Of a stretch of 64,000 bases of DNA, positions 8,155 through 23,209 are shown piece by piece (within the stretch, counting starts at the first letter, position 1; each line of letters opens with the position of its first letter). This stretch comes from Armatimonas rosea (GTDB lineage Bacteria > Armatimonadota > Armatimonadia > Armatimonadales > Armatimonadaceae). Where the stretch lies: positions 124,001 through 188,000 of the forward strand of contig NZ_JACHGW010000005.1 of the NCBI RefSeq assembly GCF_014202505.1, written 5' to 3'. The position numbers and the translations under genes are program-made. Below the pieces are notes generated by a model that was not told the origin of the DNA, searched no databases, and saw nothing but the letters and a program-made list of their open reading frames with translations.

Positions 8155-8157
8155 GTC

Positions 8158-9384
8158 ATGGCAGCGCTGAGCTTTTCCTATGTCGCGATGGACTCTGCCG
8201 GGGCACGCCGCACCGGTGTGATCGAGGCGGAGACCAAAGAGGCCGCGCTGGTACGGCTGGAGTCCGAGGGACGCTTTGTTCTGGAGATCAACGAGGCCAA
8301 GGCATCTGCGGCGGCAGCGGCGGGCGCGGCGACCTTTGGGAGCCGGAAGGCCCCCTCGCGCCAGGAGCTCGCGCTCTTCACGCGCCGCCTCGCCGACCTC
8401 TCCCAGGCGGGCCTGCCGCTGGACCGGGTGCTTCAGGTCGTGGCGGAGCAGTCGGAGAGCATTGTGCTGAAAGAGGTCTCGGAGCAGACCCTGGAGGACG
8501 TCCGCGCGGGAATGCAGGTGAGCCAGGCGCTGGCCAAGCACCCCAAGTACTTCAATGAGGTCTTCACCCAGACCCTCCGTGCTGGTGAGGCCAGCGGCCA
8601 GTTCCCCGAGGTCGCGGGGCGGCTTGCGGACTTTCAGGAAAAAGAAGTGGCGCGTCGGAGCCAGATCACCAGTGCGCTGGTCTACCCCGCGATCCTGGCC
8701 TCGACCGCGGTCTTTGTGGTTCTCTTCTTGCTGCTCTTCGTGGTGCCCAAGCTCTCGGGAGTCTTCAAGGACCTGGGAAACAACCTTCCCGTGACCACCA
8801 AGATGCTGCTCTCCAGCACGGACTTTATCACCCAGAACTGGGTGCTGATGCTCGTGCTGATCGTGGGAACGACCGTGGGCATCAAGGGCTGGCTCGCCAC
8901 TCCCGGCGGGGCGTTTCTGCGGGATAAGTTCTTGCTGAAGGCACCGCTGATTGGGCCCGTGGTGCTCAAGGCAACCATCTCGCGCTTCGCCCGTGTGCTG
9001 GGCACCCTGGTCTACGGCGGCGTGCCGATCCTGGAGGCGCTGGATATCGCAGGGCTCTCGGCGGGAAACCGGGTGTTTCATACCAGTGCGCAAAAAGTCT
9101 CCGAAGAGGTGCGCGAGGGCCGTCCTATCGCCGAGTCGATGCGCGACACGGGGGTCTTTCCGCCCGTTCTGACCCACATGGTCGCGATTGGGGAGGAGAC
9201 CGGCGATCTGCCCCGGATGCTAGGACGGGTCTCGGATAGCCTGGACTTCGAGGTAGACACCGGGATGCGTCGTCTTGTCTCTCTGGTGGAGCCGGTGATC
9301 GTTCTGACCATGGGGACATTCGTGGGGTTTGTGGTTCTATCGGTGCTCTTGCCGATCTTTCAAGCGCAGGAAACAGTCAAATGA
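8158..9384 (+). CDS. gspF: Type II secretion inner-membrane platform protein GspF
   Basis: 408 residues, the standard length. It contains two T2SF domains, each beginning with a helix-rich cytoplasmic part: FTRRLADLSQAGLPLDRVL near residue 75, and FARVLGTLVYGGVPILEALD near 278. There are three hydrophobic segments: ITSALVYPAILAS onward, WVLMLVLIVGTTVG, and the C-terminal VIVLTMGTFVGFVVLSVLLP. GspF is the membrane platform that contacts GspE and receives pseudopilins. It starts 3 nt after gspE and overlaps gspG by 4 nt. Confidence 0.95.
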   Translation: MAALSFSYVAMDSAGARRTGVIEAETKEAALVRLESEGRFVLEINEAKASAAAAAGAATFGSRKAPSRQELALFTRRLADLSQAGLPLDRVLQVVAEQSESIVLKEVSEQTLEDVRAGMQVSQALAKHPKYFNEVFTQTLRAGEASGQFPEVAGRLADFQEKEVARRSQITSALVYPAILASTAVFVVLFLLLFVVPKLSGVFKDLGNNLPVTTKMLLSSTDFITQNWVLMLVLIVGTTVGIKGWLATPGGAFLRDKFLLKAPLIGPVVLKATISRFARVLGTLVYGGVPILEALDIAGLSAGNRVFHTSAQKVSEEVREGRPIAESMRDTGVFPPVLTHMVAIGEETGDLPRMLGRVSDSLDFEVDTGMRRLVSLVEPVIVLTMGTFVGFVVLSVLLPIFQAQETVK

Positions 9385-9794
9385 AAAAACAAAAACGTGC
9401 GTTTACGCTCATTGAGATGCTGGTCGTGGTGCTGATCCTTGCGATCTTGGCCGCGCTGATTGTCCCCCGTGTGGTCAACCGCACCGGAGATGCCAAGCGC
9501 GCCAAGGCCGCCAGCGATATCGCGACCCTGACCGGGCTTTTGCAGCAGTACAAAGTCGATACCGATCAGTTCCCCACGACCGAGCAGGGCCTCAACGCGC
9601 TCCGTGTCGCTCCGGGCGATGTGAGCAACTGGCGCGGCCCGTACTCCCAGAAGGATATCCCCGGCGATCCGTGGCAGAACGAGTATGTCTATGAGTCGCC
9701 TGGCCCCAATGGGGAGGACTTTGTGATCGCTTCCTACGGGGCGGATGGCGCTCCGGGCGGCGAGGGCGACAACGCGGACATCACGAGCCTCTAA
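9381..9794 (+). CDS. gspG: Major pseudopilin GspG
   Basis: 137 residues. The prepilin signal is [28 protein letters not shown]. The body has the GspG signature YKVDTDQFPTTEQGLNAL, GPYSQKDIPGDPWQNEYVYESPG, and the calcium-loop region near FVIASYGADGAPGGEGDNADI. It is the main subunit of the periplasmic pseudopilus. The -1 residue is Ala rather than the usual Gly. It overlaps gspF (ATGA-type) and is followed by gspH after 3 nt. Confidence 0.95.
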   Translation: MKKQKRAFTLIEMLVVVLILAILAALIVPRVVNRTGDAKRAKAASDIATLTGLLQQYKVDTDQFPTTEQGLNALRVAPGDVSNWRGPYSQKDIPGDPWQNEYVYESPGPNGEDFVIASYGADGAPGGEGDNADITSL

Positions 9795-9797
9795 GCC

Positions 9798-10403
9798 ATG
9801 CAAACGGTCTCCCCCCTAACCCCCGCCCGGCGGGGGGACAAAAAGGAAATTCCTTTAGTTCTCCCCCGCTTGCGGGGGCTAGGGGGCGCATTCACTCTTA
9901 TCGAGGCGACCGTGGTGATTACGATCCTAGCCCTGCTGGCCGCGCTCGTGCTCCCCAATGTCGTGGCGATGAAGCGCTCACGGGATGTGCAGAGCCTGAA
10001 GGCCCGTGTTCTGCGCCTGCCCGCCGAGGCGCTAAATGAAGCGCGCAAGAGCAAGCTCGCCGTGACCCTTCGGGCCGAGGGAAGCGATACCCTTATCATG
10101 GAGCGTGCCGGGGCCGAGGGGGAGGACTCCACGGAGGTGAAGCGCCTCCCCCTCAGCCAAGACCTTCAGCTGGATGCCGCAACGAGCGAGGGAAAGAGTG
10201 TCGATCTGGGCACCTGGGAGTGGACGGTCTATCCGGATGGCTCCGCGAAGGCGGGGCACTTGGAGCTGCTGGAGGGCAACCGGATCCTCGATCTGCGTCT
10301 CCCGGGCGAGGGCGAGCTGCCCCGCTGGAACACGGCAACCACGACACAGACCGACGACGAGCGCTGGAGCGCGGGAGAGCTGGAGCAACGTGGGCAGAGC
10401 TAG
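9798..10403 (+). CDS. gspH: Minor pseudopilin GspH-like, with palindrome-derived leader
   Basis: 201 residues. The prepilin helix A/FTLIEATVVITILALLAALVLPN begins near residue 31, so the leader is about 30 residues rather than the usual 6-10. That extra leader is encoded by a GC palindromic element (9814-9888) containing an inner AAAGGA-AAT-TCCTTT hairpin. The leader is basic and proline-rich (RRGDKKEIPLVLPRLRG). Either the true start is a short-leader codon not obvious here, or the element has lengthened the leader. The assignment as GspH is by position between gspG and gspI; the body has few recognisable motifs. Confidence 0.8.
   Translation: MQTVSPLTPARRGDKKEIPLVLPRLRGLGGAFTLIEATVVITILALLAALVLPNVVAMKRSRDVQSLKARVLRLPAEALNEARKSKLAVTLRAEGSDTLIMERAGAEGEDSTEVKRLPLSQDLQLDAATSEGKSVDLGTWEWTVYPDGSAKAGHLELLEGNRILDLRLPGEGELPRWNTATTTQTDDERWSAGELEQRGQS
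9814..9888. repeat. GC palindromic element inside the gspH leader
   Basis: A C-rich arm (CCCCCCTAACCCCCGC) at the left is complementary to a G-rich arm (GCGGGGGCTAGGGGG) at the right. Each arm also contains its own small hairpin, and a small A/T-rich palindrome sits in the middle. A half-length relative (CCCCCCAACCCCCGTCCGAC) lies in the rplT-pheS spacer. Confidence 0.7.
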
Positions 10404-10791
10404 GGGGCGCGGCTTTACGCTGATCGAGGTGCTCGTGACGAGCGCCTTGGTTGGGGTGGCTATCGCAGGGTCACTCACCGCGCTAGGGCGGCTCTCCCGT
10501 GCCGATGCCTACGCCCGAAATGCGGAGCTACTCCAGCGGCTTGGGGCACAAAAGCTGGTCACCCTGCAGGTCGAGGGAGACCTACGCACCGCAGATACGT
10601 CGGGGGATTTCTCTGCGGAGGGCTACCCCGAGGCACAGTGGCGGCTGGAGCTCCAGACCACCACCGATGAGAATGTGGAAGAGGCGACCATCACGGTCAC
10701 GAAGGGCGAGTCGGAGCAAGCGCTCTCGGAGCTGATCTTCTTCCGACCGACGACCACAACAACTGCAGCGACAGGAACAGGCGGACAGTGA
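10390..10791 (+). CDS. gspI: Minor pseudopilin GspI-like
   Basis: 133 residues from GTG 10390, chosen because it leaves a normal 8-residue leader (VGRARGRG/FTLIEVLVTSALVGVAIAG) and has GGAGAGCTGGAG upstream. It overlaps gspH by 14 nt. Residue -1 is Gly here. The short body with AQKLVTLQVEGDLRTADTSG fits GspI/PilV-type pseudopilins, which sit at the pseudopilus tip with GspJ and GspK. The C-terminus is a threonine run. Confidence 0.82.
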   Translation: MGRARGRGFTLIEVLVTSALVGVAIAGSLTALGRLSRADAYARNAELLQRLGAQKLVTLQVEGDLRTADTSGDFSAEGYPEAQWRLELQTTTDENVEEATITVTKGESEQALSELIFFRPTTTTTAATGTGGQ

Positions 10792-11528
10792 GCCAGAAAC
10801 GACGAAAGGTCAGGGCAGGGGTCTCTCTGCTGGAGCTAATGGTAGTCCTCGTGATGATGGGCTTCCTGACCTATGCGCTCATCTATGCTTTTGTGGGGGG
10901 GATCGACCTGGAGCGACGGCAGGCACAGCGCCAGAACGAGGAGAACCCGGCGGCTCGGGTGGAGCGGCGCGTGAGCCGCCTACTGACCGAGGCCCTGCTC
11001 TCCGAGGACACGACCGACCTGAAGACCTACTTTGTTGCCGCAACCGAGAACGATGGGGCGCTCGGGGCGGATCGGCTGACCTTCACCACGACCGCGCCCG
11101 GTCTCTCACTTGCGACCCAGGAGAGCACCGACGATTTCGAGACCCAGCACGAGCAACACGGTCCGCAGGGGGGCGTGACCGAGGTCTCGCTGGGACTCAC
11201 ACCCACCGGCGAGGCAGGAAGCCACACGGGGCTCTTTGAGCGGCTACAGACACCCGCGGATGGCGACGCGACCCAGGGCGGCACTGAGGGAGTCCTGGAG
11301 ACGAGTGTCTCCCAGCTTGGCTTTCAGTTCTTCGATGGCACCCAGTGGACCAGTGAGTGGGATACGCTCACCAGCGGGACACGGCGGCTCCCGGCGGCGG
11401 TGCGGGTGAGCTACACCCTGACCAGCGATAGCAATAATCAGGTGCACACGTTCGATGTGCGGCTGCCTGCCAGCGATGTCGATGCGAATAACCCCATCAC
11501 GGGCACCACGGCGGGAGGCGCGTCATGA
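10788..11528 (+). CDS. gspJ: Minor pseudopilin GspJ-like
   Basis: 246 residues from GTG 10788, overlapping gspI by 4 nt. The signal is KVRAG/VSLLELMVVLVMMGFLTYALIYAF, with Gly at -1 and the Glu5 equivalent present. The large soluble part with LGFQFFDGTQWTSEWDT and PAAVRVSYTL matches the PulJ/GspJ pattern ("dG..W...W.....lP.aV"). It is expected at the tip complex with GspI and GspK. Confidence 0.88.
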   Translation: MSQKRRKVRAGVSLLELMVVLVMMGFLTYALIYAFVGGIDLERRQAQRQNEENPAARVERRVSRLLTEALLSEDTTDLKTYFVAATENDGALGADRLTFTTTAPGLSLATQESTDDFETQHEQHGPQGGVTEVSLGLTPTGEAGSHTGLFERLQTPADGDATQGGTEGVLETSVSQLGFQFFDGTQWTSEWDTLTSGTRRLPAAVRVSYTLTSDSNNQVHTFDVRLPASDVDANNPITGTTAGGAS

Positions 11529-12814
11529 GCCGAAGAGCACGACGGCACGAGCGTGGTGGCGTGATGGTGCTGGCACTGGTGATCCTGGCGGGGCTGCTGG
11601 CACTGCTCGCCACCTTTGCCGCAAACCAGCGTGTCTACCAAGAGGCAACCCTCAACACCCTGCGTGAGCGCCGCGCCGAAGCCGCCGCCCGCAGTGGTAT
11701 CGCCGTCGGGCTCTCGGCCCTCGTGGAGGTAAATACCAACCTGGTCAAGCTCGACGATACCTGGGCGACTCTGGGGCAGGGGAGCGGCACGGTGGGGGGG
11801 GCGGAGGCGACCACGCTGACCAATGGAGCGACCTACCGGGTGCAGGTGGTCGATGCGGGGAGCTTCCTCAATATCAACACCCTCACCGAGGCCCAGCTCC
11901 AGACCCTCCCCCTGACGACCGAGCAGATCGCGAGCCTGCTGGACTGGCGTGAAGCCGGGACAACGCCTCGAAACGAGGGGGGGAAAGACGAGTACTACAA
12001 CGCGCTCACCACCCCCTACAACACGAAGCTAGGCAGGCTCACAACGCTTAAGGAGCTGGCGCTGGTCAAGGGCTGGACCGCACGGACACTCTACACGCCC
12101 GATGCGGAGGGGACGACCAGCACGGTCAGCTCTAGCCCGACAGCCGCCGCGAACACACCGCTGGAGGATGCAAGTGGGAACCCACTGGCGCTGGCGGGAG
12201 TTCTGACGGTATCCAGCGGTGCGCCCAATACGACCGCTACCGGGACGGCACGTACGAACCTGAACCAGCAGAACCTGAACCTGGTGCAGCTGGTCCAGCT
12301 AGGGCTACCCGCACAGCTGGCGACCCAGGGGCCGTTTACATCGTTTGCGAACCTGCTTGGACGGGGGGGGATCTCGACCCAGGCGGCGCAGCAGGTCCTC
12401 GACTCCGTGGGCTTCACAACCGATACCCGGCTGACGGGCAAGGTCAATATCAACACCGCGACGGAGGCTGTCTTAGGCAAGCTTCCCGGCGCGACCTCCG
12501 ATATTGTCAGCGCGATTGTGAGCCGCCAGAGCAGTGGCTTTGCCAGCCTGGGAGAGCTCTCCACGATCCCCGGACTCACGGGGACAGCGCTGGGAACCCT
12601 CGCCGATGCGGTCTGTGTGGGCAGTGATACGTTTATTGTCCGTGCTTGGGGCGAGAGTGGCGGGGTCGGAGTGGCCCTGGAGGCGCTGGTGGGAATTCGC
12701 AATAGTCGTCCACAGATTCTAATGGTGGAGCGCATCAACTCAACAACGATACCGGCGTGGTGGCGCTGGGAAGAGCAACCAACAACGACGGTTTCTCTGG
12801 GAGCAACGCAATGA
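11525..12814 (+). CDS. gspK: Minor pseudopilin GspK-like (general secretion protein K)
   Basis: 429 residues. The N-terminus RRHERGGVMVLALVILAGLLALLATFA is a pseudopilin helix, with Gly before VMVLAL and no Glu5, as is normal for GspK. Two helix-hairpin-helix-like segments are visible: SFLNINTLTEAQLQTLPLTT and VNINTATEAVLGKLPG. The second is followed by SGFASLGELSTIPG. These match the alpha domain of GspK, which caps the pseudopilus. It overlaps gspJ by 4 nt and the next gene by 4 nt. Confidence 0.9.
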   Translation: MSRRARRHERGGVMVLALVILAGLLALLATFAANQRVYQEATLNTLRERRAEAAARSGIAVGLSALVEVNTNLVKLDDTWATLGQGSGTVGGAEATTLTNGATYRVQVVDAGSFLNINTLTEAQLQTLPLTTEQIASLLDWREAGTTPRNEGGKDEYYNALTTPYNTKLGRLTTLKELALVKGWTARTLYTPDAEGTTSTVSSSPTAAANTPLEDASGNPLALAGVLTVSSGAPNTTATGTARTNLNQQNLNLVQLVQLGLPAQLATQGPFTSFANLLGRGGISTQAAQQVLDSVGFTTDTRLTGKVNINTATEAVLGKLPGATSDIVSAIVSRQSSGFASLGELSTIPGLTGTALGTLADAVCVGSDTFIVRAWGESGGVGVALEALVGIRNSRPQILMVERINSTTIPAWWRWEEQPTTTVSLGATQ

Positions 12815-14079
12815 ACGGGAGACAGCTGCCAACCCTACATCTCGAGTGGGCACCAGGCAACGTGCTCGCACTGGATCGCAGCGACAATCGTACCGCACGT
12901 GGGGCGGATATCTCGGAGCTGGGACGCTTTGTCCGTGGGCACAAAGAGGCACTGGTTGGCGTGAGCCGCGGGAGTGTTTTTCTGAAGACCATCCGGCTTC
13001 CGAAGGCAACCCCCGATGAGCTACGACGCCTGGTCAACCTCCGGCTGGGGCAGCTCTTCCCGCTCCCCGCGAGCGAGCTCGCCTTCGATGCCTACCAGAC
13101 CAACGACCAGAACATGGAGGGCTGGCTGACCGTGGTCGCGGCGATGCGCTCTCAGGACCTTGTCCAGCTCCGCTCCGAGCTCGCGCAAGCCGGCCTGAAG
13201 GCGACTCGGATCTTCCCGGTAGCTCTGGCCGCGCCCGCGGTCGCCAAGCAGAGCGATGCCCTCGTGGTGGATAAGCTCCCCAATGGGCTGGCTCTGGATG
13301 TGGTCAAGGACGGTGTCCTGCGCTTTAGCCGCCTGGCCCCCGAGGACTCCCCGACCGGGCTGGAGGTGCAGCGGACGCTCATGGCCGCCGGGGTGGAGGA
13401 CCTCGATGCCGTTCGAGGCCGTACCCTCGATGAGCTACACCGAGCGCCGGAGTTCTCTTTTTCGCTGAACGAAGACCGCGCGAAGGAAGAGAAGCACCTA
13501 ATTGCGGGAAAGACCCGGCTCTCGATCCTGCTCTTGGTCTCGTCGCTGCTACTGGCAGGCTTTATCTGGGTGGAGCACGCCGAGGCGCAGGCTCGAAAAG
13601 ACAAGGCCAGTGCGGTCTGGGAGACCAAGCTCAAGACCCTGCGTGTGATCCGGGATGCGGAGCTCGCCAAGGCGGGCCGGGCCGTGAGTGTTCGGGGGAG
13701 CCTAGATCGGGCGTTTGTGACTGCCCAGCCCCTCAGCGATATTGTCCAGGCGGCGGCCACCGCCCTGCCCGAGGGAAGCTGGCTGATCGGGGTGAACGCC
13801 GAGCGCGGCAAGCCGCTCCAGCTCCGTGGCACCGCGATGAACGGCCAGCAGGTCGCCAAGCTTGTGGATGGGCTAAGCCGGACGCCCCGCTTCCGGGATG
13901 TCCGCCTGGTCTTTGCCAATGGGGCCAAGATTGAGGAGACCCCTGTGGTGCAGTTTAATATCGCGGCGACCGCGGTGGGGAACCTCCCCATGCCCCAGCC
14001 CGAGAAGACCAAGAAGGGGGCAGTCAAGCGCGCTGCCACCGCGACTCCCCGTGTGGCAAGCGCAGGAGGAACCCCGTGA
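12811..14079 (+). CDS. gspL: GspL/PilM-PilN-like assembly protein
   Basis: 422 residues from ATG 12811. An upstream in-frame start at 12757 would lie inside gspK. The N-terminal part (LHLEWAPGNVLALDRSD, then VFLKTIRLPKATPDELRRLVNLRL) is the actin-like PilM/GspL cytoplasmic domain. A single transmembrane helix near residues 231-250 (LSILLLVSSLLLAGFIWVEH) precedes a periplasmic PilN-like domain. GspL links GspE to the inner-membrane platform. The gene overlaps gspK by 4 nt and gspM by 4 nt. Confidence 0.85.
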   Translation: MNGRQLPTLHLEWAPGNVLALDRSDNRTARGADISELGRFVRGHKEALVGVSRGSVFLKTIRLPKATPDELRRLVNLRLGQLFPLPASELAFDAYQTNDQNMEGWLTVVAAMRSQDLVQLRSELAQAGLKATRIFPVALAAPAVAKQSDALVVDKLPNGLALDVVKDGVLRFSRLAPEDSPTGLEVQRTLMAAGVEDLDAVRGRTLDELHRAPEFSFSLNEDRAKEEKHLIAGKTRLSILLLVSSLLLAGFIWVEHAEAQARKDKASAVWETKLKTLRVIRDAELAKAGRAVSVRGSLDRAFVTAQPLSDIVQAAATALPEGSWLIGVNAERGKPLQLRGTAMNGQQVAKLVDGLSRTPRFRDVRLVFANGAKIEETPVVQFNIAATAVGNLPMPQPEKTKKGAVKRAATATPRVASAGGTP

Positions 14080-14696
14080 AGAACTCCCTGATCAACTTTA
14101 AAAACCCGCAGGAGGTCGGGCCGAGCGCGGTCACTCTGGCCGCCCTGCTGATCCTGGCGGGCTCCCTGGCGTACATGCTCTTCGTGCCCAAGGCCACGAC
14201 CGACGGCCTCGCGCGGGGCAAGGAGCGGAGCCGCAAGCAGATCTTGGAGCAGATCGAGTCGGCCCAGGCGAGTGGTCAGGCGGCGCAGGCCGCGACCGCA
14301 GGGAAGCTCTGGCAGGGCGATACCGACACGATCTCGGCGGCGATCCTGGCACAGCTCACCCAAGAGGCGAACCTGCTCAAGGTCAAGGTCTCGGCGTTTC
14401 GACCGCAGCGCACTCTCACGCTCCCGGAGCTGACCGAGCTGCCCTTTACCGTCCAGCTCGCCGGCCCCTATCCCGCGATCCAGGCCTTTGCGGCGAGCTT
14501 TGATCGGCCCTCCAGTAAGCTGGCGCTCCGCTCGATCCAGCTCGCCAGTAGCGATGCCAGCTCCGATGCCGTGACCGCGACTCTGGGAATCTCGGCCTAT
14601 GTCTCCGGCCAGGTGACCGTGGCTCCGAAGAAACCGACGGTGTCCGCGACACCCGCACCGTCGAAGGGAGGGACCAGCAATGGCCAAGCTCAGTAA
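14076..14696 (+). CDS. gspM: GspM/PilO-like assembly protein
   Basis: 206 residues from GTG 14076. One transmembrane helix near residues 18-37 (AVTLAALLILAGSLAYMLFV) is followed by a coiled-coil stretch (KERSRKQILEQIESAQA) and a small periplasmic domain containing LPFTVQLAGPYPAIQAFAAS, which resembles the ferredoxin-like PilO fold. It is expected to pair with the preceding GspL-like protein. It overlaps the next ORF by 17 nt. Confidence 0.8.
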   Translation: MKNSLINFKNPQEVGPSAVTLAALLILAGSLAYMLFVPKATTDGLARGKERSRKQILEQIESAQASGQAAQAATAGKLWQGDTDTISAAILAQLTQEANLLKVKVSAFRPQRTLTLPELTELPFTVQLAGPYPAIQAFAASFDRPSSKLALRSIQLASSDASSDAVTATLGISAYVSGQVTVAPKKPTVSATPAPSKGGTSNGQAQ

Positions 14697-15318
14697 ACCC
14701 ATGCAGTGGATCGTGATCATCGCTATCACCGGTGGGGTCGCGGCCTACGTCCTCACCGAGCAGGAAGGCGGAGGCAAGCGCATGAAGCCGAAGACGGTCG
14801 CAAGCAAGTCCACCGCACCCGAGGGGTTTAAGGAAGAGGACATGACCGCTCGCTTCCCCCGCCTGAACGCACCGGTTCGGAATGTCTTTGTCCCGAAGGT
14901 CGCCACGAAGAAGGCACAGCCTGCCGCCGCCGCGCCGCACCCGGCGATTGGGGCACGGGTGAAGCCGACCTGGACCCTGACAGGGATCTATGTCCAGAAC
15001 GGCACCCGGCTTGCGCTGCTGGAGAACAGCTCCACCGGCGAGTCCCAGACCCTCGCGGTTGGGCAGAGCTGGCAAGGGCAGCCCATTATCGCCATCAAGA
15101 CCGATGGGATTCTCTTTGCCAATGGGACCCGGATGGTCTTTGAGGAGCCTGAGGAGGCTGAGCCCGCAGCGGTCGCTCCCGTGGTTCTTCCCGGTGGCAC
15201 CACACCTGGCGCGGGCGTACGGCCCGGGGTTGCTGCCGATACCTCGCCGAATCGTCCGATCACTATCAACCTGCCACCTGGCGTGGCACCAACGCAACCT
15301 ACGGGGAGCCGACCATGA
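14680..15318 (+). CDS. GspC/PilP-like periplasmic linker protein
   Basis: 212 residues. An N-terminal membrane anchor (QWIVIIAITGGVAAYVL, residues 9-25) is followed by a linker and a small beta domain: TWTLTGIYVQNGTRLALLENSSTGESQ, VGQSWQGQPIIAIKTDGILFANGTRMVFE. The pattern matches the homology region of PilP/GspC, which couples the inner-membrane platform to the secretin. The C-terminal tail is proline/glycine-rich. Its position just before gspD agrees with this role. Confidence 0.75.
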   Translation: MAKLSKPMQWIVIIAITGGVAAYVLTEQEGGGKRMKPKTVASKSTAPEGFKEEDMTARFPRLNAPVRNVFVPKVATKKAQPAAAAPHPAIGARVKPTWTLTGIYVQNGTRLALLENSSTGESQTLAVGQSWQGQPIIAIKTDGILFANGTRMVFEEPEEAEPAAVAPVVLPGGTTPGAGVRPGVAADTSPNRPITINLPPGVAPTQPTGSRP

Positions 15319-18032
15319 AAACATCTAGAATCTTTCGCCATTTCCCGCTACTGCTACTTGCGGTGGCCGTCACCCCCCGCGCGGCTCTCGCCCAGTTTGG
15401 CCAGGGAGGGTTTGGGGACTTTGGAGGGGGGATGGACATCCCCAAGCCCGCGTGGGAGAACTTCAAGCTCAACCCCAAGACCCGCCTGAAGCTGGACTTT
15501 CGCAATGCGAGTGTCGATGCGGTACTGAGTGTCTTTAGCAAGGCCAGTGGGATTCCCATTATCAAGGACCCCGCGCTCAAGGACCCGATCACGATCCAGA
15601 GCCCGGTCGATCTTAACCTCAAGGATGCCTTTGCGCTCCTCAATGCCGCACTGGGTGTCCGCAACTTTGACCTGACCAAGAGCGGCAATATCCTGATGAT
15701 CAAGAGCCGCGCGCAGGCAAGCTCCGGGCGCGGAAATCGCTTTGGGGGCATGAGCGGTGGTTTTGACCCGAGCATGTTTGGAGGCGGGAGCAGCCGCAGT
15801 AGCGCGGCACCCAAGGTCTATGCGCTCAAGTACGCCAATGCGACCCAGGTTGCTCGTGTCATCAACGATGTCTTTGCCAACTCGGGGCAGCAGGCGATCA
15901 ATCCGGCCGCACTGGGGGCGATGTTTGGCGGGGCTGCGACAGGAGCTCCCGCAACCCCACCCGCGGCACCTCCCGGCGGAGGAAATGGCCCCAGTGCCGG
16001 CCCTGATCCCGACCCACAGCGCGGCGGCGGTGGTGGTGGCCGCGGTGGATTTGGCGGCTTCGGGGGCGGTGGATTTGGCGGCCAGGGGGGCTTCGGTGGC
16101 TTTGGCCAAGGTGGCTTCGGTGGGATGGGCGGCTTCGGCGGCTTTGGACGCGGCGGTGCGAATACATCGGTGGTCCGCGCCTCGGCTGATGACTACTCCA
16201 ACTCCGTGATCGTCAATGCCCCCACCCGTGAGCAGGATCAGGTTGCAGACCTGATCGAAGAGATCGACAAGCAGACCGATCAGCCTCAGAAATCGCAGGT
16301 TGTTCCGCTTCAGTTTGCGCTCGCCACCGATCTTGTGACCGTGGTACAGAATGTCTTGGTCGCCAATATGCCCCGTGGGCGGGGGGGCTCCACCACGGGA
16401 CAGACACCGATCGACCAGCGCTTCGGAGGGGGCGGCGGCTTCGGCGGGTTTGGCGGCTTCGGACGTAACGGGGCATCGTCGCTGGCGGCAGGGAACGTGG
16501 TGGCAGAGTCACGCACCAACTCTCTGATCATCACGGCGACCCAGGAGAACCTTGATCTGATTACCAAGGTTGTCAAGGAGCTCGACAAGCCCATTACCTT
16601 TGAGAATAGTACGTTTGTCATCACCCTGGAGAATGCCCGCGCCGACCAGATGGCCGATGTGCTCAACCAGAGCTTTGGGAGCCGCAATGGCACCCGCTCG
16701 ACCACGGGACGCACCACGACCGGCCAGACCGGGGCTTCGTCGCGTGCCAACACCAATAACCGAACCAATACCCCCGCCACCTTGGGACGAAGCGTGCCCC
16801 AGAACGACGATCCTGTCCAGGTGGGGCTGGCCGATCCGATGGCGGGTGCAGGAGAGCTCGCGACCAACGTGACCGTCCAGCAGGGCTTCCCTGGCTTTGG
16901 CGGAGGGGGCTTCGGAGGCGGTGGCTTCGGTGGCTTTGGCGGCGGCGGCACGACAAACCGGACACAGCAGAGCACGGGCACCCGTGGCCTCGATAGCCAG
17001 GGGCGCGTGGTGAACCTGCGCGATCTCACGGGACAGGTAACCGTGATCCCGGATATCAATACCAATAGCGTTGTGATTGTTACGTCGCCACAGAACCGTG
17101 ACCTTCTCCAGCAGATTGTGGAGCAGCTCGATAAGATTCCCGAGCAGGTGATGATCGAGACCGTGATTGTCGAGGCGAGCCTGGATGCGACCGACAAGCT
17201 GGGGATCGAGTGGAACCTGACTCAGGGAACCGGTAGCGTGCTGGGAGCGCTTGGGGCCACGGATACCAAGGGCGCCGCGTCGTCGTCGTTTGGCAACCAG
17301 GCCACGACCACCCAGCCGCAGGGCTTCCGCTACACGCTCACGGGCGGCCAGTACGGGGCGTTTATGAACGCGCTCAAGACCGATGCACGCTTTGAGATTC
17401 TCTCGACCCCGCGCATCTTCACGAGCAACAACTCCACTGCGGAGATCAATATCAGCCAGAGCCTGCCCTACGTCACCAGCACCCAGACCAACGCCAACGG
17501 CGTCTCGACCTTTAACTACTCCTTCCTCGACGTGGGCATCATCCTGACGGTTACGCCCCGGATTACATCCAATGGCTTTGTCACGATGGATGTCACCCAG
17601 ACCGCCAACGACTTTGTCCGCTACACCGACTTCAACGCCCCCGTGGTCAACCAGCGCGAGGCGCAGACCACGGTCAGCGTGAAGGATGGGGAGACCATTG
17701 TCCTCGGCGGAATCATCAAGAACTCCGTCTCCGCGACTACCAACAAGCTCCCGGTGCTGGGCGATATCCCGGTTCTGGGCAAGCTCTTCCAGTCCAACTC
17801 GACCACCAAGAGCAAGACCGAGCTGCTTGTCTTCCTCACCCCACGTATCGTCCGCGATGCCGACGAGGCCCGCAAGCTCCGTGAGGACACGCAGAAGCAG
17901 ATGCAGTCTAAGCTCAAGGACAAGCTCCCGGAGTTCAGCATGCCCGACAAGGATAAAGTCAAAGAAAAGACGATTGTCAAGCCAAAAGAGGGTGTGACTA
18001 CATCAAAGGATCCTAAGAAAACCGGCGGGTAG
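15315..18032 (+). CDS. gspD: Type II secretion outer-membrane secretin GspD
   Basis: 905 residues with a signal peptide ending near PRAALA. An STN/N0-like domain (LDFRNASVDAVLSVFSKASG) is followed by three N-domains, each with the typical ITATQENLDLITKVVKELDK-type repeat, and the secretin barrel: MIETVIVEASLDATDKLGIEWNL, LSTPRIFTSNN, PVLGDIPVLGKLFQ, LLVFLTPRIV. Unusual glycine/phenylalanine-rich insertions interrupt the N-domains at about residues 234-280, 370-385 and 525-550. It forms the outer-membrane exit pore and is the last gene of the operon, followed by a strong terminator. Confidence 0.96.
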   Translation: MKTSRIFRHFPLLLLAVAVTPRAALAQFGQGGFGDFGGGMDIPKPAWENFKLNPKTRLKLDFRNASVDAVLSVFSKASGIPIIKDPALKDPITIQSPVDLNLKDAFALLNAALGVRNFDLTKSGNILMIKSRAQASSGRGNRFGGMSGGFDPSMFGGGSSRSSAAPKVYALKYANATQVARVINDVFANSGQQAINPAALGAMFGGAATGAPATPPAAPPGGGNGPSAGPDPDPQRGGGGGGRGGFGGFGGGGFGGQGGFGGFGQGGFGGMGGFGGFGRGGANTSVVRASADDYSNSVIVNAPTREQDQVADLIEEIDKQTDQPQKSQVVPLQFALATDLVTVVQNVLVANMPRGRGGSTTGQTPIDQRFGGGGGFGGFGGFGRNGASSLAAGNVVAESRTNSLIITATQENLDLITKVVKELDKPITFENSTFVITLENARADQMADVLNQSFGSRNGTRSTTGRTTTGQTGASSRANTNNRTNTPATLGRSVPQNDDPVQVGLADPMAGAGELATNVTVQQGFPGFGGGGFGGGGFGGFGGGGTTNRTQQSTGTRGLDSQGRVVNLRDLTGQVTVIPDINTNSVVIVTSPQNRDLLQQIVEQLDKIPEQVMIETVIVEASLDATDKLGIEWNLTQGTGSVLGALGATDTKGAASSSFGNQATTTQPQGFRYTLTGGQYGAFMNALKTDARFEILSTPRIFTSNNSTAEINISQSLPYVTSTQTNANGVSTFNYSFLDVGIILTVTPRITSNGFVTMDVTQTANDFVRYTDFNAPVVNQREAQTTVSVKDGETIVLGGIIKNSVSATTNKLPVLGDIPVLGKLFQSNSTTKSKTELLVFLTPRIVRDADEARKLREDTQKQMQSKLKDKLPEFSMPDKDKVKEKTIVKPKEGVTTSKDPKKTGG

Positions 18033-18054
18033 GATTTTTTAAGGATTTATTCAG

Positions 18055-18086
18055 GAAGCCACGCAGGTGCGTGGCTTCTTTTTTTT
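18055..18086 (+). terminator. Rho-independent terminator of the type II secretion operon
   Basis: A perfect 10-bp stem GAAGCCACGC / GCGTGGCTTC (18055-18064, 18069-18078), an AGGT loop and eight or more Ts. It isolates the secretion operon from the photoreceptor operon. Confidence 0.93.
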
Positions 18087-18266
18087 GAAATTCCGGGAAC
18101 TGTTTTTGAATATTTTTGTTTTATTACAATTTGGATTTTATTTAAATAAATTGGTTTCTATTGGTTTTGTTTTGGTAAAAATACTTATTTTGGTGCTTTG
18201 GTCTACAGGGAATAGGTTCATTGCCAATAATAAATTTGTTGTTGAATTATTGTCAAGGATGGGGAA
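18087..18266 (+). promoter_or_regulatory. AT-rich promoter region of the PYP operon
   Basis: 180 bp that are very AT-rich compared with both flanks and have no credible coding content. A candidate promoter is TTGGTG (18190-18195), 17 nt, TAGGTT (18213-18218). It would give a leader of about 42 nt with AAGGA at 18255-18259 before the TTG start at 18267. A second possibility is TTGCCA (18221-18226) with AATTAT (18245-18250), but that would cut into the ribosome-binding site. Confidence 0.4.
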
Positions 18267-19232
18267 TTGGTTGATACGAATTTTATAGAGGCTGAGCTGA
18301 ATGGCGCTGCGCTCAATGGGATATGGAAAGATTGCTTGGATAGCTATGATTACATCAGTAGCTCCGATAAGATTGAGTGCTTGGGGCAGGTAATCGAGCT
18401 AAGGGATCATATCATTGAGGTCTTGCGGGATATCTCGGATGGCATAGAGCGGCAGTCTTGTTTGGGACTCTTTTACCTGGAGCTAAAGACCGAGTGGATG
18501 CTGCTCAACACGCAGTACACCTACCAGCTTGAGGCTCAAAAACTAGATCATCAGACCGTTTGCCGGGCAGGACTCTTCTCTGCACTCTTAGGTGCGCTTG
18601 AGCCACACTGTCGCCCGGCGGATATCACCCGCATTGAAGCGCTCCTGGCGCAGCTTCCCAATAACGATGAGACGAGCCTGCTAGACGATACCCAGCTGGT
18701 GCTTCGGGGACAAATTCAAGAGCTTAGTGAGACCCTCGCCTGTAAAGATTCCGCACTACAGCGTCTGCAAGACGAGTGGCAGCTCCTGGAGGTCGGGCTG
18801 GGAAAGCGCTCGGCGCGGGAGATTGTAGAGTGTGTGCGCGAGCTCAAGGACGATCTCCTTCAGCTCCAGCGCACCGGCGGCAGTGTCCTCCCCGAGAAGT
18901 ACCTGGAGTTTGACCGAGAGTTCGGCGGCCTCAGCGCCCACCAAGTTGCCAGCCAGCTGGAGCGCTTGGAGACAAAGGTGCGGGTCTTGGAGAAAGAGTC
19001 CCTGGCTGCCACGGAGGGGCAGGAGCTCCTCCTGCGCGAGCTCGGCGATGCCGATCCACGCCGGCTGATCGCGCGCTTTGGAGAGCTACAGGACTCCGTT
19101 ACCCACCTCACCATGGAGCTTGCCCGCCTCAAGGCTAGCTCTCCCCAAAACGCGCCTCTGGCCGCCCCCGACGAGGACCTGACGTCCTTGCTTGGGAGCC
19201 TCGAAAGCGCCCTACACGCCTTCAATCACTAA
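18267..19232 (+). CDS. Coiled-coil protein of the PYP operon, first gene
   Basis: 321 residues from TTG 18267, supported by AAGGATGGGG just upstream; no better ATG lies before the conserved-looking region. No known domain is recognised. Residues 1-130 look like a helical bundle (IELRDHIIEVLRDISDGIER, LFYLELKTEWMLLNTQYTY). The remainder is predicted coiled coil, with a repeat in the form LLE-VGLGKRSAREIVECVRELKDDLLQLQ and LLRELGDADPRRLIARFGELQDSVTHLTMEL. The same repeat occurs in the next gene. No signal peptide or membrane segment is visible, so it is probably cytoplasmic. Its place at the head of the photoreceptor operon suggests a partner or scaffold role (inference). Confidence 0.8.
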   Translation: MVDTNFIEAELNGAALNGIWKDCLDSYDYISSSDKIECLGQVIELRDHIIEVLRDISDGIERQSCLGLFYLELKTEWMLLNTQYTYQLEAQKLDHQTVCRAGLFSALLGALEPHCRPADITRIEALLAQLPNNDETSLLDDTQLVLRGQIQELSETLACKDSALQRLQDEWQLLEVGLGKRSAREIVECVRELKDDLLQLQRTGGSVLPEKYLEFDREFGGLSAHQVASQLERLETKVRVLEKESLAATEGQELLLRELGDADPRRLIARFGELQDSVTHLTMELARLKASSPQNAPLAAPDEDLTSLLGSLESALHAFNH

Positions 19233-19261
19233 ATCTATCCCCCTTGTATTAGGAGAGAAAT

Positions 19262-19804
19262 ATGTCCGTCCCCTTCACCGCTGAGCAGTACCAGCAGTGT
19301 CTGAAAGAAAACCAAGAGCTACGCTTGCAAAACGAGACCCTTGCCCAGGCCAACTCGACCCTCACCCAGACCGTTGAGCAGCTTGCAAAAGGTAGTGTCA
19401 ACGAGAGCACGATCACCAAGACCCCCGACGAGATCCTGCGCAAAGTGCGCTCCTTTGCCCAACAGGTTGAGGCGCTGAACACCACGGTCGTCAGCATGGA
19501 GTCGCAGCTCACGAGCCTCTACGGAGACAAAGAGCGCCTTGAGGCGGAGATTGGTGCCTCGGAAGTGGATGATGTGGTCGGTGCCTTTCGCCGACTCGAG
19601 AATGTCATCTCCAGCATGGAGTTTCAGCTCATGTCGCTCTATGCGGGCAAAGAGCTCCTGGAAGTGGAGCTTGGAAAATCCGATCCGAAGGCGATTGTTG
19701 CGATGTTCCGAAACATGACCCAGATGGTGGATGGGCTTCGTAATGAGCTAGCAGTGGTGGGTAGCACCGAGGATGAGTTTTCGTCCGAGGCACTTGCAGC
19801 CTAA
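19262..19804 (+). CDS. Coiled-coil protein of the PYP operon, second gene
   Basis: 180 residues, ATG at 19262 preceded by AGGAGAGAAAT. It is almost entirely heptad-rich helix. Two repeats of about 50 residues are visible: LTSLYGDKERLEAEIGASEVDDVVGAFRRLENVISSMEFQ and LMSLYAGKELLEVELGKSDPKAIVAMFRNMTQMVDGLRNE, matching the repeat in the preceding protein. The spacing to the PYP gene is 29 nt. No family was recognised. A structural or signal-relay partner of the photoreceptor is a reasonable guess but unproven. Confidence 0.82.
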   Translation: MSVPFTAEQYQQCLKENQELRLQNETLAQANSTLTQTVEQLAKGSVNESTITKTPDEILRKVRSFAQQVEALNTTVVSMESQLTSLYGDKERLEAEIGASEVDDVVGAFRRLENVISSMEFQLMSLYAGKELLEVELGKSDPKAIVAMFRNMTQMVDGLRNELAVVGSTEDEFSSEALAA

Positions 19805-19833
19805 GCGGTTAAAAGAATTAGATAAGGAATCAA

Positions 19834-20382
19834 ATGAATCTCTTCAGTAAACTTGCCGAGCTTGCCCGTTTTCTCTTTCAGGTCGAGGGAATCTCCGATG
19901 CGACCGAGAGCACAAAAAAAGAAGCTCGTCGCGACGACCTCATCCGCAAGCCAACCTCTGTCGCGGAGGCGGTCGGGGGCACCAGCACGCCGCCGCCACA
20001 GCACGCCTTTGTCCCTCAGGAGCTACTGAGCAATCTTCCCAATATGAAGCAGAGCCAGCTCGATATGCTAGATTTTGGAGCGATCCGTGTCAGCGATGAG
20101 GGCGTGATCCTCTCCTACAACCGCTGGCAGTCCGAGTTTGCCCAGGTCGATCAGGACGAGGCACTCGGGAAGAACTTCTTCCGCGAGCTGGCACCCTGCA
20201 CCAACAACCGCCTCGTCTTTGGCCGCTTCAAGCAAGGTGTCGCGGATGGGAGCCTGGATGTCGTGGTCTCGTATGCCTTCACCTATCGCATGCGTCCCAC
20301 CCTCGTGAAGGTCCATCTCTACCGCGAGCCAAAGACCAAGGCCAACTGGATTCTGGTCGCACGGGTGGGGGGGAACAAGTAG
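19834..20382 (+). CDS. pyp: Photoactive yellow protein (PYP) with N-terminal extension
   Basis: 182 residues. From about residue 73 the sequence aligns without gaps, at an offset of 53, to Halorhodospira halophila PYP through the chromophore site: LDFGAIRVSDEGVILSYN, GKNFFRELAPCTNN, FKQGVADGSLDV, FTYRMRPTLVKVH. Cys122 equals the chromophore-binding Cys69, Tyr95 equals Tyr42, Met153 equals Met100 and Phe149 equals Phe96. Gln99 replaces Glu46, Ala103 replaces Thr50 and Val105 replaces Arg52. PYP is a cytosolic PAS-fold blue-light sensor that binds p-coumarate through a thioester. The first ~70 residues are an extra, partly helical extension of unknown function. The next gene makes the chromophore. 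Confidence 0.96.
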   Translation: MNLFSKLAELARFLFQVEGISDATESTKKEARRDDLIRKPTSVAEAVGGTSTPPPQHAFVPQELLSNLPNMKQSQLDMLDFGAIRVSDEGVILSYNRWQSEFAQVDQDEALGKNFFRELAPCTNNRLVFGRFKQGVADGSLDVVVSYAFTYRMRPTLVKVHLYREPKTKANWILVARVGGNK

Positions 20383-20383
20383 C

Positions 20384-23209
20384 GTGCCTCTCTCCTCTCT
20401 CCGTGAGCGACTCTACCAGCGGCTGCGTGGGCGGCCCTATCCCCTGTTTGTCTTTGCCCACGAGGCGACCTTCCCTGCGGCTGCCCTCTGGACCGGTGCA
20501 CGCGCTTGGACACGTGCCTTCCGCGAGGCAGGTGTGCAGCCTGGCGACCGGCTGGTGCTGGGACTGCCACCATCGGCGGCCTTTGTCCAGGTCGTGATCG
20601 CGGCGCTCTGGGAGGGGATCACGCTGGTTCCCATCGGAGAAGGAGGAGAGCTCAGCGCCCTGATGGAGTGCACCGATGCCCGCTGGGGTGTCGCGCTCTC
20701 GGGGGAGGCGAGCCAAGGAATCTTTATCCCGGAGGGGTGCTCCGGTCCCGATCCCAAGGTGGCTGTGGTGCCGCGTACGCCCCGTTTCAGCCCCACCCCC
20801 GATGCCGCTCTCTTGATGCGGACATCGGGCACGGGCGGGGAAGGGCGCTGGATCGCGCTCTCGCTCGCTGGGGTACTGGCAGCGCTAGACTCCCATCTCG
20901 ACGTGCTGGGCCTACCGGAGGAAGAGAGCCGCATGCTCTCGGTGCTTCCCTGGCACCATGTCTTTGGCTTTGTCTTTGATCTACTCGTGGGCATGTTTTC
21001 TGGGGCAGAGATCGTCCGCGACCCCGCTGCGGGGCGCGATACCGCCGCTCTATTGGCACTGGCTGCCGAGGTCGAGCCTACCTGGCTCAATGCCGTCCCA
21101 CTGACCATCCAGCGCCTCGCCCAAGAGAGTGAGGGCCGGGCTCTTCTCCAGGCACTCAAAGGCGGCGTGATTGGCGGCGCACCGATCCCGGAGGCGCTGG
21201 TTCCCTTACTCCAGACCACTAAGCTGCGCGTTGGCTACGGCCAGACCGAGGCATCGCCGGGAATCGCACTCGGGGAGCCGGGGAGCTTTCTGGGCCGTGG
21301 CTACCTAGGGCAAGCCCGGGGCTGTGAGACGCGCCAAGAGCCCGATGGCACGCTGGCCTTCCGCGGTGCCAATGTCTGCCTGGGCTACTGGGACTCCACT
21401 CAGGGGCTCGTGCGCTGGGAAGCCGACCGCTGGCACAACACAGGGGATCTCGTTGCACCTTCGGGGGATGGCGGCTGGCTCTACCAAGGCCGGATCGACG
21501 ATGGATTTAAGCTGAGCAACGGGGTACGTGTCGAGGCCGGGCCTCTAGAGCAGGCGGTACTCGTCAAGCTAGGAGACTTTCTCGATCAGGCGCTCCTGCA
21601 CTCGCCCGATGGCGCGACCCTAGAGCTCTTGGTGGCCTGCAAGCCGGGGCGCCAGCTTCCTTGCCGCGAGCACTTCTTCGAGCCACTGGGCAAGCTGGCG
21701 GGGCGACTGCAGAGTGTTCGCGTGCTTCCCCCTAGTGCCTGGGTGACGACACCCAAAGGTACGTTACGACGTCTACCTACCCTGAAGAGCGCCCAGTACA
21801 CGCCGCTTGCCCTAGGACCCGACAGCCGCCTTACTTGTGAGGAAATCGAGCGGATCGCCTCCAACCCGGCACTGACCGCCACTCTCACGCCCGCGGCACG
21901 CGTGGCCATGGAGCAGAGTGTTGGTTGGCTGGAGGAGCTGCGCCGCGCGGATACCCCGATCTACGGAACCACGACGGGATTTGGGCCTTTTGTGCGCTAC
22001 GGCGCGGGGAGTGGAGTCGCGCAGGGAGCGGGGCTGATCGCACACTTAGGGGCGGGTTTTGGTGACGATGCCCCAGCCTGCGTTGTCCGGGCGACCCTTG
22101 TCTGCCGGGCGCAAAACCTTGCCCAGGGCCACTCCGCCATCCGCCCCGCGCTGCTAGAAGCCTATCTCAAGCTCCTGGGTGAGGAGCATATCGCGGTTCC
22201 CCTGATTGGCTCGGTGGGGGCGAGCGGCGATCTCGTTCCGCTGGGGCATATCGCCCGCGTCCTAGCCGAGCGCATCCCGCTGGAAGGCCGCGAGGCGCTC
22301 TCGCTTACCAACGGAACATCGTTTCTCACCGCCTACGCCGCCCTGGCTACCGCGCGCGCCGCTCGCCTGCTTGCCCATGCCGAGGCGCTGACCGGCTGGC
22401 TCTACCGGACACTGGGCTGCCGCGCCAGTGCGCTCGACCCACGCCTCCACCGAGCGCGGGGGCACCAGGGGCAGATCGAGAGCGCGGCGCAGATCGCGCG
22501 GGAGGCAGGGCGCTTTGGGGAGTTCGAGGATAAAAATCGTCCTCTGCAAGAGGTCTACTCCCTGCGCTGCGCCCCACAGGTGCTGGGCGCGTGCCGGGAG
22601 AACCTGAGCCACGCCCGCCGGATTGTAGAGACCGAGCTCAATGGGGTGAGCGACAACCCGCTGTTCTTCGACGGCCCTGCCGTGGCCCACGGCGGCAACT
22701 TCCATGGACAGCAGGTGGCGTTTGCCGCTGATGCCCTCAATGCGGCGCTGGTGCAAGCGGCGGTCCTGGCGGAGCGCCAGCTCGATGCCTTGATTACGCC
22801 CAGTGTCACCAATGGCCACGCGCCGCTCTTGCTTGCCTGGGAGCCGGGGCGGCACTCCGGGCTCGCTGGTGCCCAGCTCACGGCCACCGCGCTCGTGGCG
22901 GAGATGCGTGCCCACGGCGGCCCCGCGGCGACCCTCTCGATCCCCACCAACGGGGGCAACCAGGATGTGGTCTCGATGGGAACCCTCGCGGCGCGCCTCG
23001 CCTATGCCCAGACCGAGCGCCTCGCCGGGGTGCTGGGGATTCTGGCGCTGGCGCTGACCCAGTACGCCCACCTGCAAGCCCATGACAAAGCCCCTGGTCC
23101 TCCCACTCCCCCGGTTGCGGGCCTGCCGGAGATTGTCGGGCTAAACGAAGACCGGCCCCTGCGCGAAGACATCGCGCGGCTGGTCGGGCACTTTCTCACT
23201 CCGGGCTAG
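20384..23209 (+). CDS. Fused p-coumarate:CoA ligase-tyrosine ammonia-lyase (PYP chromophore synthesis)
   Basis: 941 residues from GTG 20384, only 1 nt after the PYP stop. Residues 1 to ~465 form an adenylate-forming ligase: TSGTGGEGR (147-155), GYGQTEASPG, NTGDLVAPSGDGGW, GRIDDGFKLSNGVRVE, and a shortened C-terminal TPKGTLRR. Residues ~475-941 form an aromatic-amino-acid lyase: YGTTTGFGP, MIO-forming Ala613-Ser614-Gly615 in GSVGASGDLVPLGH, VYSLRCAPQVLG, and NGVSDNPLFF. His554-Leu555 match the His89-Leu90 pair that selects tyrosine in Rhodobacter TAL. Expected chemistry: tyrosine to p-coumarate to p-coumaroyl-CoA for the PYP cysteine. In characterised PYP clusters these are separate genes (tal/hutH-like and pcl). 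Confidence 0.93.
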   Translation: MPLSSLRERLYQRLRGRPYPLFVFAHEATFPAAALWTGARAWTRAFREAGVQPGDRLVLGLPPSAAFVQVVIAALWEGITLVPIGEGGELSALMECTDARWGVALSGEASQGIFIPEGCSGPDPKVAVVPRTPRFSPTPDAALLMRTSGTGGEGRWIALSLAGVLAALDSHLDVLGLPEEESRMLSVLPWHHVFGFVFDLLVGMFSGAEIVRDPAAGRDTAALLALAAEVEPTWLNAVPLTIQRLAQESEGRALLQALKGGVIGGAPIPEALVPLLQTTKLRVGYGQTEASPGIALGEPGSFLGRGYLGQARGCETRQEPDGTLAFRGANVCLGYWDSTQGLVRWEADRWHNTGDLVAPSGDGGWLYQGRIDDGFKLSNGVRVEAGPLEQAVLVKLGDFLDQALLHSPDGATLELLVACKPGRQLPCREHFFEPLGKLAGRLQSVRVLPPSAWVTTPKGTLRRLPTLKSAQYTPLALGPDSRLTCEEIERIASNPALTATLTPAARVAMEQSVGWLEELRRADTPIYGTTTGFGPFVRYGAGSGVAQGAGLIAHLGAGFGDDAPACVVRATLVCRAQNLAQGHSAIRPALLEAYLKLLGEEHIAVPLIGSVGASGDLVPLGHIARVLAERIPLEGREALSLTNGTSFLTAYAALATARAARLLAHAEALTGWLYRTLGCRASALDPRLHRARGHQGQIESAAQIAREAGRFGEFEDKNRPLQEVYSLRCAPQVLGACRENLSHARRIVETELNGVSDNPLFFDGPAVAHGGNFHGQQVAFAADALNAALVQAAVLAERQLDALITPSVTNGHAPLLLAWEPGRHSGLAGAQLTATALVAEMRAHGGPAATLSIPTNGGNQDVVSMGTLAARLAYAQTERLAGVLGILALALTQYAHLQAHDKAPGPPTPPVAGLPEIVGLNEDRPLREDIARLVGHFLTPG

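Follow-up and report, generated by a model that had tools for sequence, protein, structure and literature searches.

We analyzed a 64,000-nucleotide stretch of the Armatimonas rosea genome (contig NZ_JACHGW010000005.1, positions 124,001 to 188,000; hereafter the window), in which a gene for photoactive yellow protein (PYP) is grouped with genes for two coiled-coil proteins, CC1 and CC2, and for a fusion of a p-coumarate:CoA ligase (pCL) with a tyrosine ammonia-lyase (TAL). The four open reading frames (18267-23209) are tightly packed on the plus strand, are intact, and have the coordinates given by an earlier, sequence-only reading of this DNA. The intergenic gaps measure 29, 29 and 1 bp, and each start follows a Shine-Dalgarno-like sequence; the proposal of that reading that the genes form one unit holds. 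The genes and the features within them are as follows (genomes and loci are given G and L numbers below).

18267-19232, plus strand: CC1, 321 amino acids, TTG start, an N-terminal helical domain followed by coiled-coil repeats (open reading frame, relatives beside PYP, AlphaFold)
18267-18656, plus strand: CC1N domain, CC1 residues 1-130 (six helices, invariant Trp77 and Asn81)
19262-19804, plus strand: CC2, coiled-coil protein of 180 amino acids (open reading frame; CC2-type repeats lie directly 5′ of PYP in other phyla)
19493-19732, plus strand: two CC2 repeats of exactly 40 residues each (SMESQLTSLYGDKERLEAEIG.. and SMEFQLMSLYAGKELLEVELG..), read from the sequence
19834-20382, plus strand: PYP with an N-terminal helical extension, 182 amino acids (matches to TIGR02373 and to PYPs in the PDB)
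20128-20130, plus strand: Gln codon at the Glu46 position (alignment)
20197-20199, plus strand: Cys codon of residue 122, equivalent to the chromophore-attaching Cys69 (alignment)
20384-23209, plus strand: pCL-TAL fusion, 941 amino acids, GTG start 1 bp past the PYP stop (Pfam AMP-binding and Lyase_aromatic)
20384-21793, plus strand: p-coumarate:CoA ligase-type domain (Pfam; relatives directly 3′ of pyp)
21818-23206, plus strand: tyrosine ammonia-lyase-type domain (Pfam Lyase_aromatic; His-Leu selectivity pair)
22043-22048, plus strand: His-Leu substrate-selectivity pair at the position of RsTAL His89-Leu90 (lyase alignment)
22220-22228, plus strand: Ala-Ser-Gly triad expected to cyclise to the 4-methylideneimidazole-5-one (MIO) cofactor (sequence and alignment)

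Both coiled-coil partners named by the sequence-only reading are genuine and conserved with PYP, but that label undersells CC1, whose first 130 residues are predicted to form a compact, folded, non-coil domain. We defined this CC1N family with a profile built from 42 sequences of the CC1 N-terminal domain; the window CC1 matches the profile, and Trp77 and Asn81 are invariant in the alignment. AlphaFold models the domain as six helices, with a per-residue confidence (pLDDT) of 95.7 and a predicted template-modelling score (pTM) of 0.88. CC1N has no Pfam family and no sequence match in the PDB, and Foldseek against the PDB returned no convincing fold match (best E value 0.6 for full CC1 and 0.73 for CC1N). 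A phosphotransfer (Hpt) role was rejected because the alignments contain no conserved His, and the window CC1 gave no Pfam match to the Hpt, ATPase or CheW-like domains of CheA. The coil of CC1 resembles CC2 (E = 2.6e-5), and the Pfam matches of CC2 are to generic coil families.

To describe the distribution of these partners, we took 80 named PYP loci, spread over about 12 phyla, from a contig scan. A single conserved motif served to find them, and their similarity to the window PYP to rank them, so that clade C (Burkholderiales) of the literature is probably under-represented. In the PYP tree, a classical set (Halorhodospira halophila, Idiomarina and Halomonas kin; 24 loci) is separate from the non-classical rest (56 loci). 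Of the 56 non-classical loci, 53 have CC1N and/or CC2-type repeats next to PYP, against 0 of the 24 classical loci (Fisher 1.8e-17, a value that ignores the kinship of loci; related PYP loci are not independent, and only four changes are needed on the tree). Matches to CC1N fall within 4 kb of PYP in 33 of 36 cases, and 67 of 98 CC2 matches lie no more than 2 kb away on its 5′ side. Genome-wide, CC1N was detected in 50/56 genomes with a non-classical PYP and 0/24 with a classical one; when it is missing from a non-classical PYP locus (19 genomes), one copy is found elsewhere in the genome in 13.

The same association holds within the phylum. A true PYP is present in seven of 291 Armatimonadota genomes, namely the window's own (G000), G015 (two copies), G016, G017, G020, G087 and G126; the remaining PYP matches are weak and, as would be expected of ordinary PAS proteins, come from large open frames. 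Relatives of CC1 were found beside PYP in G015, G016, G017 and G020. When gene order was mapped in relatives, as the sequence-only reading had suggested, the order CC1-CC2-PYP recurred in these same four genomes, including both copies in G015; the PYP locus of G017 is cut by a contig end. By profile search, CC1N occurs in eight of the 291 genomes, comprising all seven with PYP and G122, a 72% complete bin, which gives one of 284 PYP-less genomes as the background rate, measured in Armatimonadota only. G008, from the same genus as the window's genome, lacks the cassette. Close relatives without the cassette and related modules in distant phyla suggest, but only suggest, that it is 'portable', as had been claimed. 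A Roadblock/LC7-like gene was suspected by eye before CC1 in G017; it was dropped, having no Pfam or PDB match.

It might be argued that only PYP and the fusion enzyme are real parts of this locus, and that the coiled-coil genes are passengers or composition-driven similarity matches; CC2 is indeed a repetitive coiled coil that attracts generic coil families. We regard such a chance neighbourhood as highly improbable. CC1N is modelled as a folded, non-coil domain and has invariant residues, matches are confined to the neighbourhood of PYP, and the idea is already contradicted by the contrast between non-classical and classical loci, by the genome-wide CC1N counts and by the co-occurrence of CC1N with PYP across Armatimonadota.

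Domain fusions connect the same partners in other phyla. In Bdellovibrionota (L099 and relatives), a CheA that is encoded directly upstream of PYP and contains Hpt and ATPase domains ends in CC1N; in L098, L109 and L096, CC1N is followed by a degenerate CheA region (a CheW-like Pfam match, or PDB matches to CheA only). CC1N is the only part common to the window CC1 and these CheA-fused homologues. In-frame fusions also unite CC2-type repeats with PYP, in Planctomycetota (L081) and, weakly, in L099; in L123, L110 and L100, such fusions involve PYP-like domains without Cys69. An apparent PYP-CC1N fusion in L075 was rejected, because the first part of the open frame is PYP sequence translated in the wrong frame. 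Together with the tight co-occurrence, the fusions suggest that PYP, CC2 and CC1N work in one complex.

In G020, PYP has Ser at position 69 and Ala at position 46; CC1-CC2-PYP is kept, the enzymes are absent beside PYP, and no lyase (TAL) match was found in the genome. Every aligned PYP-like domain without Cys69 has this combination of Ala46 and Ser69 (L036:7741-8118; L101, L110, L114, L115, L123, L124), and these domains are a possible dark subclass of PYP. In Rhodothermia/Bacteroidota, they terminate long CC2-type coiled-coil proteins, with a normal PYP adjoining. L100 and L110 each contain three PYP or PYP-like domains in a single locus.

CC1 and CC2 could instead take no part in signalling and be assembly factors that stabilise PYP or assist in the loading or storage of p-coumaroyl-CoA, a role that would suit those distal CC1N genes that lie beside TAL or pCL genes and not PYP (L184 and L193) or between pCL and TAL (L194). 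Assembly factors would not, however, be expected to be fused to CheA kinases, as CC1N is, or to coexist with a PYP that lacks Cys69 in a genome without a TAL match, as CC1-CC2 does in G020; the fusion of CC2-type coils to Cys69-less PYP-like domains also speaks against this role, which we consider improbable.

The window PYP itself matches TIGR02373 with E = 1.4e-31 at 109 bits and does not reach the curated cut-off of 143 bits; this family covers only about 20% of PYPs, whose membership has been defined by Cys69 (PMC9664959). Against the solved PYPs in the PDB, the match has E = 3e-28. A broken copy of the gene would have refuted the sequence-only reading; the reading frame is intact, and Tyr42, Asn43, Cys69, Tyr94, Met100 and Trp119 are kept in the alignment. 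In the Tyr42/Glu46 hydrogen-bond pair, Tyr42 is present and Glu46 is replaced by Gln, and Thr50 is replaced by Ala. Gln46 occurs in only one of 83 main PYP rows of our alignment and in 2.6% of 984 PYPs in a published set, whose consensus residue at position 50 is Ala, with a tendency towards red-shifted absorption (PMC12826048). The E46Q substitution in H. halophila PYP causes a red shift and an altered photocycle (PMC9664959). The window PYP (19834-20000, MNLFSKLAELARFLF..) and the G017 PYP (L037:3990-4170, MNLLQRILKFVAFFG..) have in common a hydrophobic N-terminal helical extension that is absent from other armatimonad PYPs.

The fusion enzyme, which begins directly after PYP, is probably the source of its chromophore. 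Pfam places the AMP-binding domain at residues 34-336 and the main Lyase_aromatic match at residues 630-907; the ligase half matches PF00501 at 95.5 bits (cut-off 29.9). The lyase half has the MIO-forming Ala-Ser-Gly and the catalytic motifs, and reads LIAHLGAG, with His-Leu where armatimonad histidine ammonia-lyases have Ser-His; we take the pair to have the role in tyrosine selectivity known from Rhodobacter TAL. A stretch of about 25 residues found in relatives is missing from the lyase half, and the PYP-linked lyases of Bdellovibrionota have the same gap. ANL enzymes usually carry a catalytic GK near the C-terminus. The catalytic Lys of this xGK motif was not found in the ligase half, where the sequence is TPKGTLRR; this KG lies in 21739-21780, and several PYP-linked ligases show the same shift.

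The link between this enzyme and PYP, on which the sequence-only reading had relied, recurs in relatives. Similar fusions lie near PYP in G087 (L096) and G126 (L076) and on another contig in G017, and in G015 and G016, from the same family as the window's genome, pCL adjoins pyp and TAL is elsewhere in the genome. In Leptospiraceae (L074), the ligase and lyase are overlapping separate genes. In the lyase tree, the window and G017 fusions are sisters to the split enzymes of G015 and G016, and the L096 and L076 fusions stand apart in both enzyme trees, indicating that the fusion arose twice, or once with a later split.

The surroundings of the operon include a type II secretion operon (GspE to the secretin GspD, 6535-18032) directly upstream. 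The terminator reported between the two operons is present, and promoter-like sites follow it.

18053-18088, plus strand: intrinsic terminator closing the type II secretion operon (12-pair stem with 7 G-C pairs, 4-nucleotide loop, T-run)
18202-18250, plus strand: promoter-like sites in the AT-rich gap 5′ of CC1 (two sigma70-like matches, 9/12 each; consensus match only)

A housekeeping cluster resembling rbfA/truB/ribF starts after 23209; the new promoter that had been placed there was not recovered, as a promoter scan after 23209 detected none. In two families, the PYP module has type II secretion genes as neighbours; they precede it in the window and follow it in G020 (L036:2-5566), so this order is not shared synteny. 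In G126 (Fimbriimonadaceae; L032:9136-15738), a chemoreceptor gene and genes for PilT-type ATPases lie in the vicinity of PYP and the fusion, the pilT genes at 1.8 and 7.3 kb from PYP. Elsewhere, a weak CC1N copy lies in an apparent gas-vesicle cluster in Silvanigrellales (L195:2114-6742), about 12 kb from PYP and apparently on the same contig. The spirochaete PYP loci L103, L105, L113 and L121 have a common neighbouring cluster resembling light-induced LitR-type clusters, with genes named by eye as a MerR-like regulator and DUF1365-like, cyclopropane-fatty-acid-synthase-like and amine oxidase genes.

We consider it likely that the four genes, as an operon of the non-classical PYP branch, are self-sufficient for blue-light sensing, with signalling from PYP through CC2 to CC1/CC1N. 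The TAL half would convert tyrosine to p-coumarate and the pCL half would convert p-coumarate to p-coumaroyl-CoA, which would load Cys69 of the adjoining PYP. Blue light would isomerise the chromophore and alter the surface of PYP; CC2, in complex with PYP, would read the altered surface and hand the change to CC1 via the homologous coiled-coil repeats and the CC1N domain.

Several observations weigh against this interpretation. The similarity scores of CC2, a coiled coil, are less specific than those of CC1N; PYP-linked ligases read KG at the canonical A10 lysine position (GK); no match to methyl-accepting chemotaxis proteins (MCPs) or the CheW/CheA family was found in the window's genome (98% complete), G015, G016 or G017; and the link to pili is one of proximity in three genomes only (the window's, G020 and G126), PilT-type motors being present in all genomes tested.

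That other phyla have CC1N attached to CheA, intact or degenerate, argues that the ancestral output was a chemotaxis-type pathway. With no MCP, CheW or CheA match, a classical Che output was rejected for the window's genome, and in G015-G017 as well a CheA readout is inapplicable and the output must differ. In the window lineage, CheA, CheW and the receptors may have been lost, with CC1 bearing a coiled coil instead and acting on another target. Our best guess for this target, and a weak one, is the type IV pilus/secretion apparatus; pili are favoured because PilT-type motors are present and because secretion or pilus genes are found close to the module in three cases (the window, G020 and G126). 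More tentatively, and with slightly less than even confidence, we propose that CC1N and CC2-type repeats are a dedicated signal-relay module of the whole PYP branch (about ten phyla), joining PYP to CheA in place of receptor/CheW coupling, and that in Armatimonadota it was rewired to a kinase-free light-signalling complex with a new output.

The genes near the module also invite another explanation, in which CC1/CC2 would be a scaffold, either cytoskeletal or for positioning pili, with PYP as an addition to it, and light would merely tune an independent twitching or secretion apparatus, by analogy with HmpF-type coiled-coil proteins and cyanobacterial pilus phototaxis. The position of the type II secretion genes in the window and in G020, the pilT genes of G126, and a genome with PilT and without Che protein matches would all fit a scaffold. 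However, CC1N is nearly absent from PYP-less Armatimonadota genomes and is therefore no general scaffold, and no pilus genes lie beside the module in G015-G017. We think this explanation unlikely and favour the relay from PYP through CC2 to CC1.

PYP is among the best-studied photoreceptors, and its signal-transduction chain was still called an important gap in 2025 (PMC12826048). CC1N, which follows the non-classical genomes, is absent from the classical ones and in some lineages forms one protein with CheA, offers a concrete candidate for the missing output, and the pCL-TAL fusion could serve as a compact one-gene chromophore source for PYP work. The sequence-only reading did not recall such a cassette being described. 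This is correct in part: PYP in Armatimonadota has been reported (PMC9664959, PMC12826048), which rules out a first PYP in the phylum, and the pyp-pCL-TAL operon of H. halophila has been published (PMC12826048), but neither of these papers refers in its main text to coiled-coil partners or to a ligase-lyase fusion, and our searches yielded no account of such a fusion. What is new is that the CC1N/CC2 partner genes track one PYP branch.

Compared with known systems, the window operon resembles that of H. halophila in that PYP is followed by a chromophore-making ligase and lyase (PMC12826048), and differs from it in that the enzymes are fused in one protein, CC1 and CC2 precede PYP, and CC1N is present, whereas every classical-PYP genome tested lacks it. 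The PYPs nearest to that of the window include those of Leptospiraceae, Kapaibacteria and Rhodothermia, a likeness to clade B of Xing et al. 2022 (Leptospira, Salinibacter), whose PYPs are adjoined by a chemoreceptor without sensory domains; the main description of that clade does not include CC1N/CC2 (PMC9664959), and the window PYP has Gln46 in a genome without a chemoreceptor match. Finally, the module is akin to CheA/chemotaxis phototaxis systems, such as those with MCP-PYP fusions (PMC12826048), in that other phyla have CC1N fused to a complete or degenerate CheA; it differs in that the window CC1 lacks Hpt, ATPase and CheW parts and its genome gave no MCP or CheW matches.

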